NCBI RefSeq assembly: GCF_025641885.1
Contig: NZ_JAOTQN010000001.1
Span: forward strand, 186,001-250,000
Direction of reading: 5' to 3'
Source: Pyrobaculum sp. 3827-6
GTDB lineage: Archaea > Thermoproteota > Thermoprotei > Thermoproteales > Thermoproteaceae
Length of the DNA: 64,000 nt
Shown: in pieces, positions 4,981-21,574 of the stretch
How the letters are laid out: every line of letters begins with the position of its first letter
Position numbering within the stretch: the first letter of the stretch is position 1
Notes under the pieces: model-generated
The model's input: only the letters and a program-made list of their open reading frames with translations
What the model was told of the DNA's origin: nothing
Databases searched by the model: none
Position numbers and translations under genes: made by a program

Positions 4981-5316
4981 CGCGACGAGACAAACCTGTC
5001 ACAGATCCACAGTCCCAGTCCATACGTCGACGCCGTCGCTGAGATTAAGACAACGGGCCCTACATCAGTTACCCACGCGGCCGTGGAGAAGGAGGCGAGA
5101 TTCTACAAAAAAGGAGACGAGTCAGCGTGCTAGGCAGTCATACACGCCGGCGCTGAGGGCGGATGCGAGGCAGACTACACGAGAACAGCTACAGTGCTGA
5201 AGACGCTGGGAGTTGACAAGTGGATCAGAAAAGAAAAACACATAAAACTCACCGGAGGCGCATTAGACGCCCTCATGCGCCTAGAGCCCCATATGCGCCG
5301 CCCTAGGCCAATGCCA
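4981..5316 (+). pseudogene. Decayed PaREP2-like gene fragment with in-frame stop
   Basis: Between the small membrane gene and tRNA-Lys one frame carries protein-like sequence: EIKTTGPTSVTHAAVEKEA, then a TAG at 5131-5133, then continuing in the same frame with CEADYTRTATVLKTLGVDKW and LTGGALDALMRLEP. The absence of a frame change and the coherent sequence on both sides of the stop argue for a recently broken gene end. The block LTxGALDALMxLxP recurs at 42354-42395. From memory it resembles the C-terminus of the PaREP2 proteins that are repeated across Pyrobaculum genomes; that family name is an inference. No start codon or N-terminal portion remains. Confidence 0.6.
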
Positions 5317-5348: not shown

Positions 5349-5445
5349 GGGCCCGTAGCTCAGCCCGGTTAGAGCGGCGGGCTTTTAAAGGGCTACGGCC
5401 CGGGCAACCCGTAGGTCGTGGGTTCGAATCCCACCGGGCCCGCCA
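5349..5445 (+). tRNA. tRNA-Lys (UUU) with 19-nt anticodon-loop intron
   Basis: A full cloverleaf folds with acceptor stem GGGCCCG/CGGGCCC, discriminator G and an encoded CCA at 5443-5445. The anticodon stem GCGGG/CCCGU flanks loop CUUUUAA, giving anticodon UUU at 5384-5386. A 19-nt intron (5388-5406, bounded by AAGGGC and CGGGCA) interrupts the loop after position 37, the canonical site. The T-stem is GUGGG/CCCAC and has no intron, unlike the three other tRNAs nearby. An AT-rich promoter element (ATTTAAAAA) lies at about 5319-5329. The intron is nearly identical to that of tRNA-Ile at 8101-8119. Confidence 0.95.
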
Positions 5446-8032: not shown

Positions 8033-8158
8033 TGGTGGGCCCGCCGGGATTTGAACCCTGTCCCAAGCCCCCACGCGGGGGCTTGACGGGACCTCCCGGA
8101 TGCCCGGGCAGATGCCCTTTATCAGCCGGGCGCTCTAACCGGGCTAAGCCACGGGCCC
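8033..8158 (-). tRNA. tRNA-Ile (GAU) with two introns
   Basis: On the minus strand the acceptor stem GGGCCCG/CGGGCCC, discriminator A and encoded CCA (8033-8035) bracket a cloverleaf with anticodon GAU (8121-8123). A first intron of 19 nt (8101-8119) follows position 37 and is 16/19 identical to the tRNA-Lys intron. A second intron of 29 nt (8058-8086) splits the 5' side of the T-stem between CCG and GG; it forms a stem CAAGCCCC/GGGGCUUG plus a bulge-helix-bulge with exon GUCC pairing intron GGAC. Removing both restores a standard T-arm CCGGG-UUCAAAU-CCCGG. A TATA-like element lies upstream at about 8184-8192. Confidence 0.93.
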
Positions 8159-8275
8159 TGTCTGCATATATAATACGCCTTTTTAAGCTTTTCTCTACCC
8201 CTGGCTTTTTAGACGTTGAACATAGCCCCTCTCCTCAGCCTCCACATATTTCTCCGCAACGCAGGTGCCTTATGA

Positions 8276-8834
8276 CTAGCCGCCTGACGCCGTACCTGCC
8301 GACTCTGCACACCTGGCGTCTACGAGCCTCACGGCGTATCCGCGGAAGTCTGAGCCTCTCGAGGCTACGATGTATGTCCTGCCGGCTAGTTGAACCGCGT
8401 CTCCCACCTCGGCGTTTAGAATGGCCGCGGCCTCACCGGCGATTTTCTCCAGCTCGGGATCGGAGCTCGCCCCCCGCCTGGACACGGCGCAGCACAGTAG
8501 CACGAGTATGTGAAAGGAGAGGTAGGCCGCGGCGAGTCCCAGGGCGATGGCGACTGCGTAGGCCAGCGATCCGAGCCACGTGCGTAAAAACACATACATA
8601 AGCACTGCGACGGCGATGCCGGCCGCTCCTGTGGCAAGCGGCGACTTGGAGAGCCTCTCCGCACATGACGGCCGCTCTTACGTCGCCGGGCCCCACCTCC
8701 CGCCTATTGAAGCCGAGGATCAGCCCATCATGCGCCTTCACCACGGCCGAGCAGAGCGCCCCCCTCCTATACACCACATACACATAGCACCAGGGGCCGA
8801 GCCTCTCCCTCAGCCAGACCGCCGCGGAGCCCAC
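8276..8834 (-). pseudogene. Membrane protein gene with a single frameshift
   Basis: A TATA box (ATTTATAAC, 8853-8861, minus strand) lies about 23 bases before the GTG at 8834 that starts MGSAAVWLRERLG. This frame is protein-like for some 56 codons up to GDVRAAVM. From about 8665 coding quality moves to the next frame (AERLSKSPLATGAAGIAV, then two membrane helices around AYAVAIALGLAAAYLSF) and continues to the stop at 8276. A single extra base near 8660-8667 would explain the change. The reconstructed protein is about 185 residues with a soluble N-terminus, two or three membrane helices and a cytoplasmic tail. It is either a pseudogene, a sequencing error or a frameshifting gene. The family is not recognised. 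Confidence 0.55.
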
Positions 8835-8880
8835 GTCTTGACGACGTCTACGTTATAAATGCTTTAAGGCACCATATACC

Positions 8881-9030
8881 CCGAGGCGGCCGTAGAGCAA
8901 CGGCCTTGTTGCTTGTCGCCGTTTGCCGACGGCCGCGGAGCAGATCCGGAGAAGCACGGCGCCGGGCCTCGGCGGGCAAAGACAAGGCAGGTCGAAGAAA
9001 CCGCACCTCGAATATGTCTACGGCTGGCGA
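8881..9030 (+). ncRNA. Candidate structured RNA between two tRNA genes
   Basis: There is no credible ORF in this stretch. A plus-strand TATA (GTTATAAATG, about 8849-8858) predicts a start near 8880, which is exactly where a perfect 7-bp stem begins: CCGAGGC (8881-8887) with GCCTCGG (8966-8972). Inside it lie two further perfect hairpins, GGCCGT/ACGGCC (8888-8905) and GCCGT/ACGGC (8918-8933), giving a multi-branch structure. A short AGGT/ACCT stem follows at 8988-9008. The same TATA region serves the divergent broken membrane gene. I tested it by eye for RNase P, SRP and C/D motifs and found no clear match. The 3' end is a guess. Confidence 0.4.
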
Positions 9031-9069
9031 AGCATTGGAGAGGCCATGCGTAAAACTATGGATGTGGGG

Positions 9070-9192
9070 TGGTGGGGCCGCCGGGATTTGAACCTTATCC
9101 CAAGCCCCCACGCGGGGGCTTGACGGGATCACGTGGGTTCTCGCCGCCTCCGGTCCCAAGCCACGCATCCTACCAGGCTAGACTACGGCCCC
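9070..9192 (-). tRNA. tRNA-Pro (UGG) with two introns
   Basis: Acceptor GGGGCCG/CGGCCCC, discriminator A and encoded CCA (9070-9072) frame a cloverleaf with anticodon stem CGUGG/CCACG and anticodon UGG (9156-9158). A 17-nt intron (9138-9154) follows position 37. A 29-nt intron (9095-9123) interrupts the T-stem between CCG and GG, at the same site and with almost the same sequence as in tRNA-Ile and tRNA-Val; its 3' part reads GGAU instead of GGAC, matching the exon AUCC of this tRNA. The promoter (TTTTAAAAA, 9211-9219) lies inside the upstream HAD gene, whose stop codon is inside the tRNA. Confidence 0.93.
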
Positions 9193-9812
9193 CGTGTCTC
9201 GTATGGCGGGTTTTTAAAAGTTTTAGCTGGCGGCTCTAGGAGCTGGTGTAGGGTGTGTATCACGTGTTGGGCTTTTCTGCAGGGGGTTTTGCGGGCGATG
9301 CAGACGGCGGCGGCGCCGGCGGCTTGGGCCATTTCCATGTCGTAGTCGGAATCGCCGACGACGATCATCTCGCGGGTGTCTACGCCGAAGCGTTGACTCA
9401 CTAGGTATAGGGGATCGGGGGCCGGCTTGCCTCTGGGGACCTCGTCGCCTCCTAGCACCAGATCTACGTGGGGGGCGAGCCCTGCGGTTTCCAGTACCCT
9501 CCTCGCCACGTGTCCGCTTGAGGACGTCACCACGGCGATTGGCCTGGGGAGCAGTCTGAGCACCTCGGCGTCGCCGTATGCCCTCACCAGGGGGAGGTAC
9601 TTCTCGAGAAACAGTTTGTTTTTTAACGTGGCGAGTTCCCCGGCGCGTTCAGGCAACAGCGCCTTGGCGATGTCGTGCGCCGGGAGTCCCATGAGGGGTC
9701 TCACCTCGTCCCGGCTCCTCTGGACGCCGAGGGCGCGGAGGGCCTCTAGCCACGCCGCTATGTGCGCCTCCACGGAGTCCACGAGCGTGCCGTCAAGGTC
9801 GAAGACGTACAC
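9183..9812 (-). CDS. HAD-superfamily phosphatase (phosphoglycolate phosphatase-like)
   Basis: A 209-residue HAD hydrolase with all four motifs: DLDGTLVDS (motif I, residues 5-13), VTSSSG (motif II), the lysine in RGKPAPDP (motif III) and VGDSDYDMEMAQAAG (motif IV). The helical cap after motif I is of the class C1 type found in phosphoglycolate phosphatases and beta-phosphoglucomutases. The GTG at 9812 is chosen because a TATA box (TATAAATA, 9833-9840) sits 24 bases upstream; longer upstream frames are not protein-like. The last codons overlap the tRNA-Pro gene by ten bases, and the tRNA promoter lies within this coding region. The substrate is unknown. Confidence 0.85.
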   Translation of the reverse strand: MYVFDLDGTLVDSVEAHIAAWLEALRALGVQRSRDEVRPLMGLPAHDIAKALLPERAGELATLKNKLFLEKYLPLVRAYGDAEVLRLLPRPIAVVTSSSGHVARRVLETAGLAPHVDLVLGGDEVPRGKPAPDPLYLVSQRFGVDTREMIVVGDSDYDMEMAQAAGAAAVCIARKTPCRKAQHVIHTLHQLLEPPAKTFKNPPYETRGP

Positions 9813-9897
9813 GCCGGCAGATACCACAGAGATATAAATAATGTCCCCGCCGGCGCCTCGGCCCGCCGTCGCCGTCAATGTCGGCGCTCCGCCACTG

Positions 9898-10059
9898 ATG
9901 TACTTTGGGTACATCAAGTTTATAGGGGGCAGTCTCCGCCTCTCCGTGGATGCGCGGCTGAATACTCTTGTCGACTTGGCTCTGCTCGCCGCCGCGGCGC
10001 TGTTGCTAATGCTCCTAGCCGCCCTAGCCGGCCTCCGCCCGCCGGCCACGTCGCCGTGA
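9898..10059 (+). CDS. Possible small membrane protein (53 aa)
   Basis: A short frame starting MYFGYIKFIGG contains one long hydrophobic segment (ALLAAAALLLMLLAALAGL) near its C-terminus. No TATA box is seen at the usual distance from its ATG, and no ribosome-binding site is obvious. It lies in the 324-base gap between the HAD gene and the DUF3782 gene, which otherwise holds nothing recognisable. It may be a real small membrane protein or a chance frame. Confidence 0.25.
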   Translation: MYFGYIKFIGGSLRLSVDARLNTLVDLALLAAAALLLMLLAALAGLRPPATSP

Positions 10060-10136
10060 AGCCCGCCCTCTCAGAGACGTCACAACCCCCCAGGGGCGGT
10101 ACAGGTATTTCCTTCGGTAGCTTGGCCGAATAGTCC

Positions 10137-10814
10137 CTATTCTATCACCGCCCCATACACCGCGTCTATCCCCAGCTGCGCCGCTCTCTCCAGAGCCTCT
10201 TTGTCTATATTCACCGCCACTATTATGAGGCGGTCTGCCTTTCTGCCGAGTATCCTCTCCACTGCCCCGGCCTTCTCCGCAAACCACTCCACATCCTCCA
10301 GCTCCGCATGCGACTTAACCTCCAAGAGATAAGTCTTCCCGTCGTGAATATAGACGTCTATCTCGATGCGGGCGCCCGGCTTCAGATAGCGGCCGTCTAC
10401 ATCCGTGTAGACGAACTTCTCCACACGGCCAGGCTCCACACCCCTACCCTCCAGCGCATCCCGGTAGATCTCGAGAACCGTACGCTCCAAGTCGCGGCCC
10501 CACCTACGGCCGAGGGAGCCCATAGCCACCTTAAGCTCAGCCACAGCCTTGGTCAACTCGTCAAGCCGCCTACCATGCTCAGCCAAAATCCTACCCTGCT
10601 CCTCCACCGCTTTGGCTAGCTTTTCCAGCTTCTCGCTGTGTTCAGCAACTGTCTTGGCTAGTTCTTCTATTCTTTTGTTTGTCTCTTGGAAGCCGGTCTT
10701 CATGTAGTCGGCGAGGGTTTTCACGGCCTCCGCCACCTCTCTAAGCTCTTCAGACCTAGCCCTCCTAACAGCCCTCTCCACAACCTCCTCAAGCCTACCC
10801 CAGTCGAGACTCAC
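10137..10814 (-). CDS. DUF3782-type PD-(D/E)XK nuclease-like protein with coiled coil
   Basis: The first 100 residues form a heptad-repeat coiled coil (for example EHSEKLEKLAKAVEEQGRI). The C-terminal domain carries a PD-(D/E)XK-like core: IEIDVYIHDG followed by YLLEVKSH, where the aspartate and the ExK pair would be catalytic. This arrangement matches the DUF3782 proteins common in Thermoproteales, which are predicted nucleases without a proven role. A TATA box (ATATTTAAAA, 10833-10842 read on the minus strand) lies about 23 bases before the GTG start. No neighbouring gene suggests a partner. Confidence 0.75.
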   Translation of the reverse strand: MSLDWGRLEEVVERAVRRARSEELREVAEAVKTLADYMKTGFQETNKRIEELAKTVAEHSEKLEKLAKAVEEQGRILAEHGRRLDELTKAVAELKVAMGSLGRRWGRDLERTVLEIYRDALEGRGVEPGRVEKFVYTDVDGRYLKPGARIEIDVYIHDGKTYLLEVKSHAELEDVEWFAEKAGAVERILGRKADRLIIVAVNIDKEALERAAQLGIDAVYGAVIE

Positions 10815-11410
10815 TGTATTGATGCGTCGCTGATATTTAAAAGCCTTTCTGGCATGTGCGGAGTCGGTTGGGTTGCCGTGGCTGTCTCAGTATCTAAGAG
10901 GAGTGGGCCGCTGTGTGGTATCGCGTCTCTTAATTTCGCCTAGTCGCAGACCGCGGCTTCTCGCACCCGCGCCGGTTTACGGGGCGCGGCGGGTGGAACT
11001 TCTCCAGTAGACGTGGTGGACGTCGCCTAGATCTACCGATGGGCGGCGTCCCGCATCTAGGCTGGGCCGGGAGCCGTCCTCGCGGAAGGTGCACCTCCTA
11101 GGCGAGGCGGCCGGCACCCACCTCGGCGGCGAGATTCGGCGGGGTGGAGTAGAAAACTCGGCGTCGGTACGGTGTGGAAACGCGCCTCTAGTGGAAGGCG
11201 GGGATGTGGCGGCTGGGGACGGCGGAGGGCTGGCTTTCATCGATGCGGCGGGTCTCACCTAGGTTAGCATGCCGAGGCCGGGGGGGCCGCTGTGCGGCGA
11301 TGGGGGTAACAAGTGCGTGGGTTTGGGGCCGCCTCGCATCTCGGTTTGGGCTTGTGCCCGAGCTGTTAAGGCAGGTCTCTGTAGGCTTGCCGCTACGGCT
11401 AGTATATCTG
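10815..11410. other. Long gene-poor stretch with one protein-like open frame
   Basis: About 600 bases separate the DUF3782 gene from tRNA-Val. One plus-strand frame (11011-11262, no early start codon) reads as plausible protein from about 11085 (KVHLLGEAAGTHLGGEI, then LVEGGDVAAGDG) and may be the remnant of a gene; I cannot assign a family. A hairpin with stem CCGCGCC/GGCGCGG lies at 10967-10989. No tRNA, C/D box RNA or insertion sequence was found here. Confidence 0.3.
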
Positions 11411-11540
11411 TGGTGGGCCCGCCGGGATTCGAACCTTGTCCCAAGCCCCCTGGCGGGGGCTTGACGGGACCACCCGCGTTCTCCGGCTGTTGCGGGTGTG
11501 CCTTGTAAGGCGGGCATCATAACCGCTAGACTACGGGCCC
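11411..11540 (-). tRNA. tRNA-Val (UAC) with two introns
   Basis: Acceptor GGGCCCG/CGGGCCC, discriminator A and encoded CCA (11411-11413) enclose a cloverleaf with anticodon stem CCCGC/GCGGG and anticodon UAC (11505-11507). A 25-nt intron (11479-11503) follows position 37. A 29-nt intron (11436-11464) splits the T-stem between CCG and GG; it differs from the tRNA-Ile copy mainly in the hairpin loop (GCCA for GCGU) and its last two bases. The bulge-helix-bulge forms from exon GUCC and intron GGAC, with bulges CGU and AAG. The promoter element CTTAAAAATAG lies just upstream at about 11561-11570. Confidence 0.93.
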
Positions 11541-20675: not shown

Positions 20676-21026
20676 ATGGCTGAGAGGAGGGAGGTGGAGA
20701 GGGGGAAGAGGTTATTGATCCCTCCATACCTGTCGCCGCAACAGGAGAGGAGGGAGCAGAAGAAGTCTGAGCGCAGGGCGAAGATAAGGCACGCGGAGGG
20801 CGTTGAGGATGGCGTCGCTAAGCTGGCTCCCGACGTTTACGAGGAGTTGGACAAGCCAGCCGAGGTGGAGATAGTGGCGCCTGGGGGGTCCTCCCACGAG
20901 AAGAAGAAGGTCTTTAGGGCCGTTCTGGGGGAGAAGATCCCGAGTGGGGAGATCCACGTCTCGGCTGAGGACTTGAGGGCCCTGGGTATTGCAGAGGGCA
21001 CTGTGGTGACTGTTAGAAAGAAATGA
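20676..21026 (+). CDS. Conserved hypothetical protein in operon with splicing endonuclease
   Basis: A 116-residue protein with a very basic, helical N-terminal half ([20 protein letters not shown]) and a small beta domain at the C-terminus ([20 protein letters not shown]) that looks like a swapped-hairpin or double-psi barrel fragment. A TATA box (GTTTTATAATC, about 20646-20656) precedes the ATG by about 25 bases. Its stop overlaps the endA start by four bases (ATGA), so both proteins come from one transcript. The basic N-terminus and the coupling suggest RNA binding or assistance to the endonuclease, but this is inference. Confidence 0.75.
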
Positions 21027-21574
21027 TTGGGATACTGCGGGGGCTTGCCGTAGTGGTTGAAGACGTCGAGTCGGCCAGGAGTCTTTACAGAGAGGGGTTC
21101 TACGGCCGGTTTCTAGGCTACGACAAGGTTAAGAGAGATGAGGTAGACCGCGTAAACGCCCCCCTCGTGCTCGCGCTTTACGAGGCGCTGTACCTCGCCG
21201 AGAGGGGGAGGCTGAGAGTCATGGCCGAGGGGGGAGAGGAGGTGCCGCCGGAGAAGCTGGCGGAGCTGGGGAGATCTAGGCTGAAGAACTTCGACGAGAT
21301 TTACAAGATATATAGATACTTCCGCGACTTGGGCTACGTGGTGAAGAGCGGATTGAAATTCGGCGCGTTGTTCTCTGTGTACGAGAAGGGGCCTGGGATT
21401 GACCACGCGCCTATGGTGGTTGTCTTTCTAGAGCCGGACAAGGGGATATCCGCCACGGACATCACGCGGGGGGGCAGGCTTGGGCATAGTGTCAAGAAGA
21501 CGTTTACCCTAGCCACAGTGTTGAAACAGACGGGCGAGGTTACGCTCTTGGGGTTTACCTGGGCGAAGCTTTAG
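21023..21574 (+). CDS. endA: tRNA-splicing endonuclease, catalytic subunit
   Basis: The enzyme cuts bulge-helix-bulge structures at tRNA intron boundaries. The catalytic triad region is intact: tyrosine in [11 protein letters not shown], histidine in GIDHAPMVV and lysine in [11 protein letters not shown]. At 183 residues it is the size of the catalytic subunit of crenarchaeal heteromeric enzymes, which need a second structural subunit encoded elsewhere. Such heteromeric enzymes accept relaxed bulge-helix-bulge motifs at non-canonical positions. That fits the T-arm introns in the tRNAs at 8.0-11.5 kb. It is translationally coupled to the upstream gene. Confidence 0.93.

Follow-up and report, generated by a model that had tools for sequence, protein, structure and literature searches.

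We analyzed a 64,000-nucleotide stretch of the genome of Pyrobaculum sp. 3827-6 (the window; C1:186001-250000 of an archaeal genome of 2.3 Mb, called G000 here) in which three neighboring tRNA genes, for Ile, Pro and Val, each contain a 29-nt intron in the T-arm. Comparison with the closest relative (sister genome G003) indicates that mobile elements probably deliver such introns, as part of tRNA 3'-end cassettes that extend from the T-stem to the CCA. An earlier note on this DNA had proposed that one intron spread between tRNA genes; it missed the likely vehicle, mobile elements. At the level of sequence comparison, we report displaced 3' ends and empty sites, linkage of the intron with the T-arm and the encoded CCA, and adjacency of a characteristic open reading frame (ORF). 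The introns of the Ile, Pro and Val genes in the window may have arrived by the same element route.

Two gains were found in G003. At tRNA-Arg(CCT), G000 and G003 agree through CCGTAGGTC (tRNA positions 40-48). In G003, this segment is followed by CCG^intron^GG...CCCGG and CCA, then by an insert of 1.6 kb, and beyond the insert by CCGTAGGTC-GTGGGTTCGAATCCCAC-CGGGCCCGC and the host flank, the same as the intronless end in G000. The old end of the G003 gene, CCGTAGGTCGTGGGTTCGAATCCCACCGGGCCCGCTACTTTT, is about 1.7 kb downstream and is identical to the end and flank of the intronless G000 gene. At tRNA-Thr(TGT), the stretch common to the two genomes is AGCGGGAGGTCCCG. The new end in G003 has the intron and TTCAAAT, and a displaced intronless old end with TTCGAAT is located 2.5 kb downstream.

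The CCA was encoded in 12 of 12 intron-bearing genes in G000 compared to 14 of 33 intronless genes (p = 0.0004), and in all 14 intron-bearing genes among the RF00005 matches in G003. For five of the six orthologous pairs that differ in intron status (see below), the intron-bearing copy had the CCA and the other copy did not. Because the CCA tracks with the intron, the moved unit appears to be the 3' end of the tRNA, from the T-stem to the CCA. The T-stem itself had been proposed as a shared target site. CCGGG T-stems were present in 12 of 12 carriers and 18 of 33 non-carriers in G000 (p = 0.004), so the association is real, but the CCGGG stem of Arg(CCT) arrived with the intron and replaced GUGGG. 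In the genomes of the family, CCGGG was found in 3/3 intron-bearing Arg tRNAs; nearly all of the intronless Arg tRNAs listed there had GTGGG or GCGGG stems, with one CCGGG (in G004).

Over the long aligned stretches that were examined, sequence identity between G000 and G003 is about 91-98%. Six of the 42 orthologous tRNA pairs differ in intron status. The intron was present only in G003 for Asn, Arg(CCT), Thr(TGT), Tyr and Gln(TTG), and only in G000 for Gly(TCC). The 3' flank, scored as broken if there was no homology in the first 300 nt, was broken in 6/6 status-changing pairs compared to 9/36 unchanged pairs (p = 0.001). This was also the case when only tRNAs with CCGGG stems were considered (6/6 vs 5/24, p = 0.0008). 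Breaks in the 5' flank were not linked to intron status (3/6 vs 13/36, p = 0.41). The far end of the insert in the G003 Asn gene consists of a Met-like tRNA that has an intron of its own and is joined to the acceptor end of Asn; the Asn intron is therefore not assignable to either the element or the host. A large inversion between G003 and G000 has a breakpoint at tRNA-Gly(TCC) (G003 C1:1341871, G000 C1:981913; L146, L169), where both the intron and the CCA differ.

There was also a loss. In G000, Gln(TTG) is an intronless gene followed by an 8.1-kb element, a displaced intron-bearing 3' half and the host flank; the corresponding site in G003 is empty, with an uninterrupted, intron-bearing gene. 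The element encodes two integrase-like genes of the tyrosine recombinase type (PF00589). A tyrosine recombinase, a rebuilt tRNA gene, a displaced 3' half and an empty site in a relative identify this locus as an integrative element. Relatives of the 406-amino acid (aa) integrase of this element adjoin the 3' halves of Ser(GCT), Ser(CGA), Glu(CTC) and Gln(TTG). We considered the possibility that the T-arm intron is a shield against integrase elements; Gln(TTG) was invaded despite its intron, the other targets have no such intron, and no conclusion is drawn.

The Arg and Thr inserts of G003 encode proteins of 436 aa and 440 aa, respectively, that are 49% identical and convergent with the tRNA gene. 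Close relatives of this ORF are 40-60 nt from the T-loop in 5/5 close cases, all at intron-bearing tRNAs; they adjoin Arg(GCG) in G000 and G003, and Thr(TGT) in G016, a genome from another genus. A C-terminal remnant of the ORF is beside the G003 tRNA-Asn gene, and a decayed relative that reads GLLLTDG and LGDG is beside an intron-bearing tRNA-Asn gene in another family of the order. The ORF or a remnant adjoins 5/28 intron-bearing genes and 0/60 intronless genes (p = 0.0025). The Thr elements of G003 and G016 have 88% DNA identity over 2.1 kb and 90% protein identity, whereas one comparison protein between the two genera is 57% identical, which points to horizontal transfer.

The motifs GWRASDE and LGDG are invariant in 21 sequences of the ORF family, and represent two LAGLIDADG-type helices with acidic residues. 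AlphaFold (AF2) models of the ORF had predicted local distance difference test (pLDDT) scores of 87-88. The eight best PDB matches to a model of the core were LAGLIDADG nucleases, a maturase or an intein bearing a homing endonuclease, with a best E of 0.0024 and low template modeling (TM) scores. There were weak single-member matches to LAGLIDADG_WhiA (E = 0.03) and PaRep2b (E = 0.003). We regard the element protein as LAGLIDADG-like and as a candidate nuclease, not a proven one. The ORF is outside the tRNA gene and on the opposite strand, and so does not fit intron-encoded (group I type) homing. A second small frame in the Thr element (L178:1692-2198) has weak likeness to GIY-YIG nucleases (PF01541, E = 0.17), as does a remnant in the 3' flank of the G003 tRNA-Asn gene (L109).

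We propose that small mobile elements would end in a tRNA 3'-end cassette that extends from the T-stem (position 49) to CCA76 and has the intron inside. Such an element would insert in a tRNA gene between the anticodon and the T-stem, perhaps aided by the LAGLIDADG-like protein cutting the target, and the cassette would complete the broken gene. The rebuilt gene would acquire the intron together with an encoded CCA and a T-stem of sequence CCGGG, and its former 3' end would be moved to the far side of the element. The introns would be harmless to the tRNA because the splicing endonuclease presumably excises them, and would spread because they are housed in the cassette. If the element were later lost, a tRNA gene with an intron would remain, as may have happened for Ile, Pro and Val in the window; if the integrating element had a 3' half that lacks an intron, the intron would be removed, as at Gln(TTG). 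A more specific version of this model is that there is a distinct class of small elements that combine an intron-bearing tRNA 3' half with an endonuclease that cuts tRNA genes, that the intron disrupts the cut site and shields both element and host, and that the T-arm introns of the Thermoproteales are footprints of these elements. We offer this version tentatively, and consider it rather unlikely.

After introns were removed in silico and genes called again, there were 45 intact tRNA genes in G000, 12 of which have an intron between positions 51 and 52, all with CCGGG T-stems. These are Ile, Pro(TGG), Pro(GGG), Val(TAC), Cys, Gly(TCC), Arg(GCG), two Met-CAT, Ala(TGC), Gln(CTG) and His; several degenerate tRNA copies also have the intron. 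Given 12 carriers genome-wide, the local group of three, which the earlier note had described as a local cluster, is nothing exceptional. A covariance model of the intron was run on 398 genomes sampled from the phylum. The intron was present in G003, G004, G005 and G016, a diverged form was found in G017, G018 and a second family of the order, and there were no others among the sampled genomes, a patchy distribution across relatives. Matches of model R1 in G001 and G008, and one each in G004 and G005, were intronless Ser tRNAs and were dropped.

The introns resemble other introns of the same lineage more than introns of the same tRNA elsewhere. Hairpin similarity was highest (0.895) when different tRNAs of one lineage were compared, lower (0.841) for a given tRNA compared across lineages, and lowest (0.813) for pairs that differed in both respects. 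For example, Ile and Val of G004 and G005 share CAACCCCC hairpins, and those of G000 and G003 are mostly CAAGCCCC. This grouping and the patchy distribution support the proposal that a single intron family spread from one tRNA gene to another; grouping by tRNA identity, named in advance as the pattern that would count against spread, is the opposite of what was seen. A lone T-arm fragment in G005 (C1:1505122; L111:8124-8179) has an intron of the G000 type; the T-arm introns of G005 itself are of another type. This fragment is probably the displaced 3' end of an old insertion.

The introns in the window are located as originally described (Table 1): 29 nt long and at a single T-stem site (CCG^GG, after position 51) in Ile, Pro and Val. 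The neighboring tRNA-Lys indeed lacks a T-arm intron, and its T-stem is GUGGG. The hairpin had been called invariant. Its arm (CAAGCCCC/GGGGCUUG) is the same in all three genes, but the four-base loops vary (GCGT in Ile, GCGT in Pro and GCCA in Val). In the predicted structure, a 4-bp central helix (tRNA positions 46-49) is flanked by two 3-nt bulges; the 5' exon ends in GUCC or AUCC and then CG^U, and the intron ends in GGAC or GGAU and then RG^G. Judged from this structure, the T-arm introns are archaeal bulge-helix-bulge (BHB) introns of a relaxed motif, with a weak outer helix. The hairpin pattern occurred at 9 places in the genome compared to 0 in a reversed control, and the pairing scheme outperformed shuffles and slid registers. 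ARAGORN alone missed all three of these tRNA genes. Neither protein comparison nor a search of the window for T-arms revealed convincing element remnants beside them.

Table 1. Positions of the tRNA genes, their T-arm introns and related features in the window.
Feature	Position	Strand
tRNA-Lys(TTT), GUGGG T-stem, no T-arm intron (comparison gene)	5349..5445	+
tRNA-Ile(GAT), encoded CCA, canonical intron and T-arm intron	8033..8158	-
tRNA-Ile T-arm intron, 29 nt, after tRNA position 51	8058..8086	-
tRNA-Ile intron segment GGAC, partner of exon GUCC (tRNA 46-49)	8060..8063	-
tRNA-Ile exon segment GUCC (tRNA 46-49)	8089..8092	-
tRNA-Pro(TGG), encoded CCA and T-arm intron	9070..9192	-
tRNA-Pro T-arm intron, 29 nt, after tRNA position 51	9095..9123	-
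tRNA-Pro intron segment GGAU, partner of exon AUCC	9097..9100	-
tRNA-Pro exon segment AUCC (tRNA 46-49)	9126..9129	-
tRNA-Val(TAC), encoded CCA, canonical intron and T-arm intron	11411..11540	-
tRNA-Val T-arm intron, 29 nt, after tRNA position 51	11436..11464	-
tRNA-Val intron segment GGAC, partner of exon GUCC	11438..11441	-
tRNA-Val exon segment GUCC (tRNA 46-49)	11467..11470	-
tRNA-splicing endonuclease, catalytic subunit (PF01974); enzyme expected to excise T-arm introns	21023..21574	+

The earlier note had correctly paired the intron segments GGAC, GGAU and GGAC with the exon segments GUCC, AUCC and GUCC, and had read this exon-matched covariation as a signature of spread. We examined 36 functional carriers from five genomes. 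The central helix was intact in all 36, indicating that pairing is under selection. Several degenerate tRNA copies break the helix (e.g., L052, L085 and L096), and the sole A x C mismatch is in one of these (L052). Position 46 is nearly the only variable pair in the intron family, and wobble pairs predominate (G.U in 23 carriers, G-C in 7 and A-U in 6). The intron partner of position 46 is U in 6/6 genes with A46 and in 23/30 genes with G46. Because U pairs with both A and G, GGAU is a permissive end, and it is the end found in the recent gains. Matching of C or U in the intron to G or A in the exon did not reach significance (p = 0.32 by Fisher test; p = 0.18 for strict Watson-Crick pairs), and it was better than with shuffled ends (0 of 20000) only once the divergent Gln and His introns were included. 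There were no two-sided changes, in exon and intron, among orthologous tRNAs. The pattern in the window is compatible with a pairing constraint and is uninformative about movement. We therefore reject it as a signature of spread, given the lack of significance and a single variable position that is mostly wobble.

There is a second intron family at position 29/30 (CAGGGGC...GCCCCGC), in Thr(TGT), Thr(CGT), Val(GAC) and two Met-CAT genes (L041, L042, L047, L049, L013). In addition, tRNA-Arg(TCG) has an intron at the canonical position in G003 (C1:228677, L139) and none in G000 (C5:7888, L015). PaRep2b was considered as the vehicle for T-arm introns and rejected, because it is located 5' of tRNAs and has no match to the ORF family. 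PaRep2b genes or remnants (window 5080-5315; L113:8838-10094, PF07775) end directly upstream of tRNA genes and fragments, including tRNA-Lys in the window, Thr(GGT) and a degenerate Thr copy, and a degenerate tRNA with a T-arm intron. Another copy (L107:5228-7342) begins beside the 5' end of tRNA-Ala. A PaRep2b gene separates the intact tRNA-Thr(GGT) from a copy, 2.4 kb away, in which the 5' strand of the acceptor is destroyed (G000 C1:912718 and C1:915107; L102, L113). PaRep2b elements may target the 5' parts of tRNA genes.

Intron movement could also have occurred without a mobile element, if homologous recombination (gene conversion) copied the T-arm and its intron from one tRNA gene to another. 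This would account for the grouping of introns by lineage, for Arg(CCT) and Thr(TGT), where T-arm bases change along with the intron, and for the difference in the Ile hairpin between G000 and G003 despite intact flanks. Because most carriers have no adjoining element, gene conversion could explain those, and it is a serious rival for the three genes in the window, whose flanks hold no element. However, gene conversion should leave flanks intact, and the 3' flank was broken at every change in status; it also does not predict the displaced old 3' ends. We consider it a credible, if somewhat doubtful, explanation. A different possibility is that ordinary integrative elements with tyrosine recombinases make all of the swaps and that the LAGLIDADG-like ORF is a passenger. 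The integrases of the Gln(TTG) element, the integrase relatives beside displaced Ser, Glu and Gln 3' halves, and the short shared overlaps at the Arg and Thr junctions, typical of site-specific integration, are consistent with this, but the 1.6-kb Arg insert is too small for an integrase besides the 436-aa ORF, and the Arg overlap is at positions 40-48 and not in the anticodon loop. It seems unlikely that such elements account for every swap.

Ancestral introns in these tRNAs followed by differential loss could be imagined for Ile and Val, which carry 51/52 introns in G000, G003, G004 and G005. As a general explanation this is improbable, because hairpins group by lineage, many relatives have no introns, and the displaced intronless ends indicate recent gains in Arg(CCT) and Thr(TGT), contradicting it there. 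Least probable, in our judgment, is reverse splicing of free intron RNA followed by reverse transcription and recombination, with the intron ends later adjusted to the exon, the route that the earlier note implies. Near-identical introns across many isotypes and the pairing of all 36 functional helices would fit, but only the intron should then be inserted, and the T-stem, T-loop base 57, the CCA and the 3' flank change as well; furthermore, there is no significant match between the intron ends and position 46. Several points also weigh against delivery by mobile elements. The flank test was devised after some junctions had been seen and involves six events in one genome pair; one of these, at Gly(TCC), is an inversion, and the junctions at Tyr have decayed. 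There is no adjoining element at most carriers, among them the three genes in the window. Curated families (Pfam, NCBIfam and PHROGs) gave no significant match to the ORF, and with the Foldseek matches described above the nuclease assignment is insecure. ORF relatives are also beside initiator Met genes that have no T-arm intron, and in G012, from a neighboring genus, the 17 matches to the ORF family are mostly away from tRNAs.

Transposition of tRNA introns is known in the Thermoproteales (Fujishima et al. 2010, as summarized in PMC4090602 and PMC4033280), and the mechanism in archaea has been described as unknown in a review (PMC4090602). Our results resemble that work in the near-identical introns in different isoacceptors, the same order and the BHB-type junctions, and the mark of a transposed intron, near-identity between the introns of different tRNA species within one genome, was found here. 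The difference is that here the tRNA 3' end moves with the intron, old ends are displaced, and there is a candidate vehicle. In Caldiarchaeum, intron gain by way of an intron-bearing attP has been proposed (Sugahara et al. 2012, PMC3293823; reviewed in PMC8371274). There too, a mobile element enters a tRNA gene and the rebuilt gene differs in its intron, but that case involves one locus, an intron at 24/25 and a displaced 5' tRNA fragment. Here, T-arm introns and 3' ends are swapped, both gain and loss are seen, the sister comparison is genome-wide, and the gain elements carry the LAGLIDADG-like ORF and no recognizable integrase. Free-standing LAGLIDADG homing elements share with our elements the two LAGLIDADG-like motifs, a conserved target gene family and patchy spread across genera; in our case the ORF is outside the intron and downstream of the tRNA, the intron is a 29-nt BHB intron, and cleavage is putative. 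The Gln(TTG) locus is like SSV/pNOB8-type elements (PMC8371274) in that the tRNA is rebuilt at one end, the 3' half is displaced and an integrase is adjacent, except that the swap removed an intron, which was kept in the displaced half. A literature search of partial coverage found no paper that links T-arm introns to such an element. As far as can be told, what is new relative to these systems is the preservation of old 3' ends alongside new ones, for gain as well as for loss, the linkage of the CCA and T-stem, the 3'-flank test and the candidate protein. Because the former 3' end of a tRNA and its replacement coexist in one genome, for a gain and for a loss, the puzzle of intron spread becomes one that can be cloned and assayed, and the CCGGG T-stems, encoded CCA ends and T-arm introns would be explained together.

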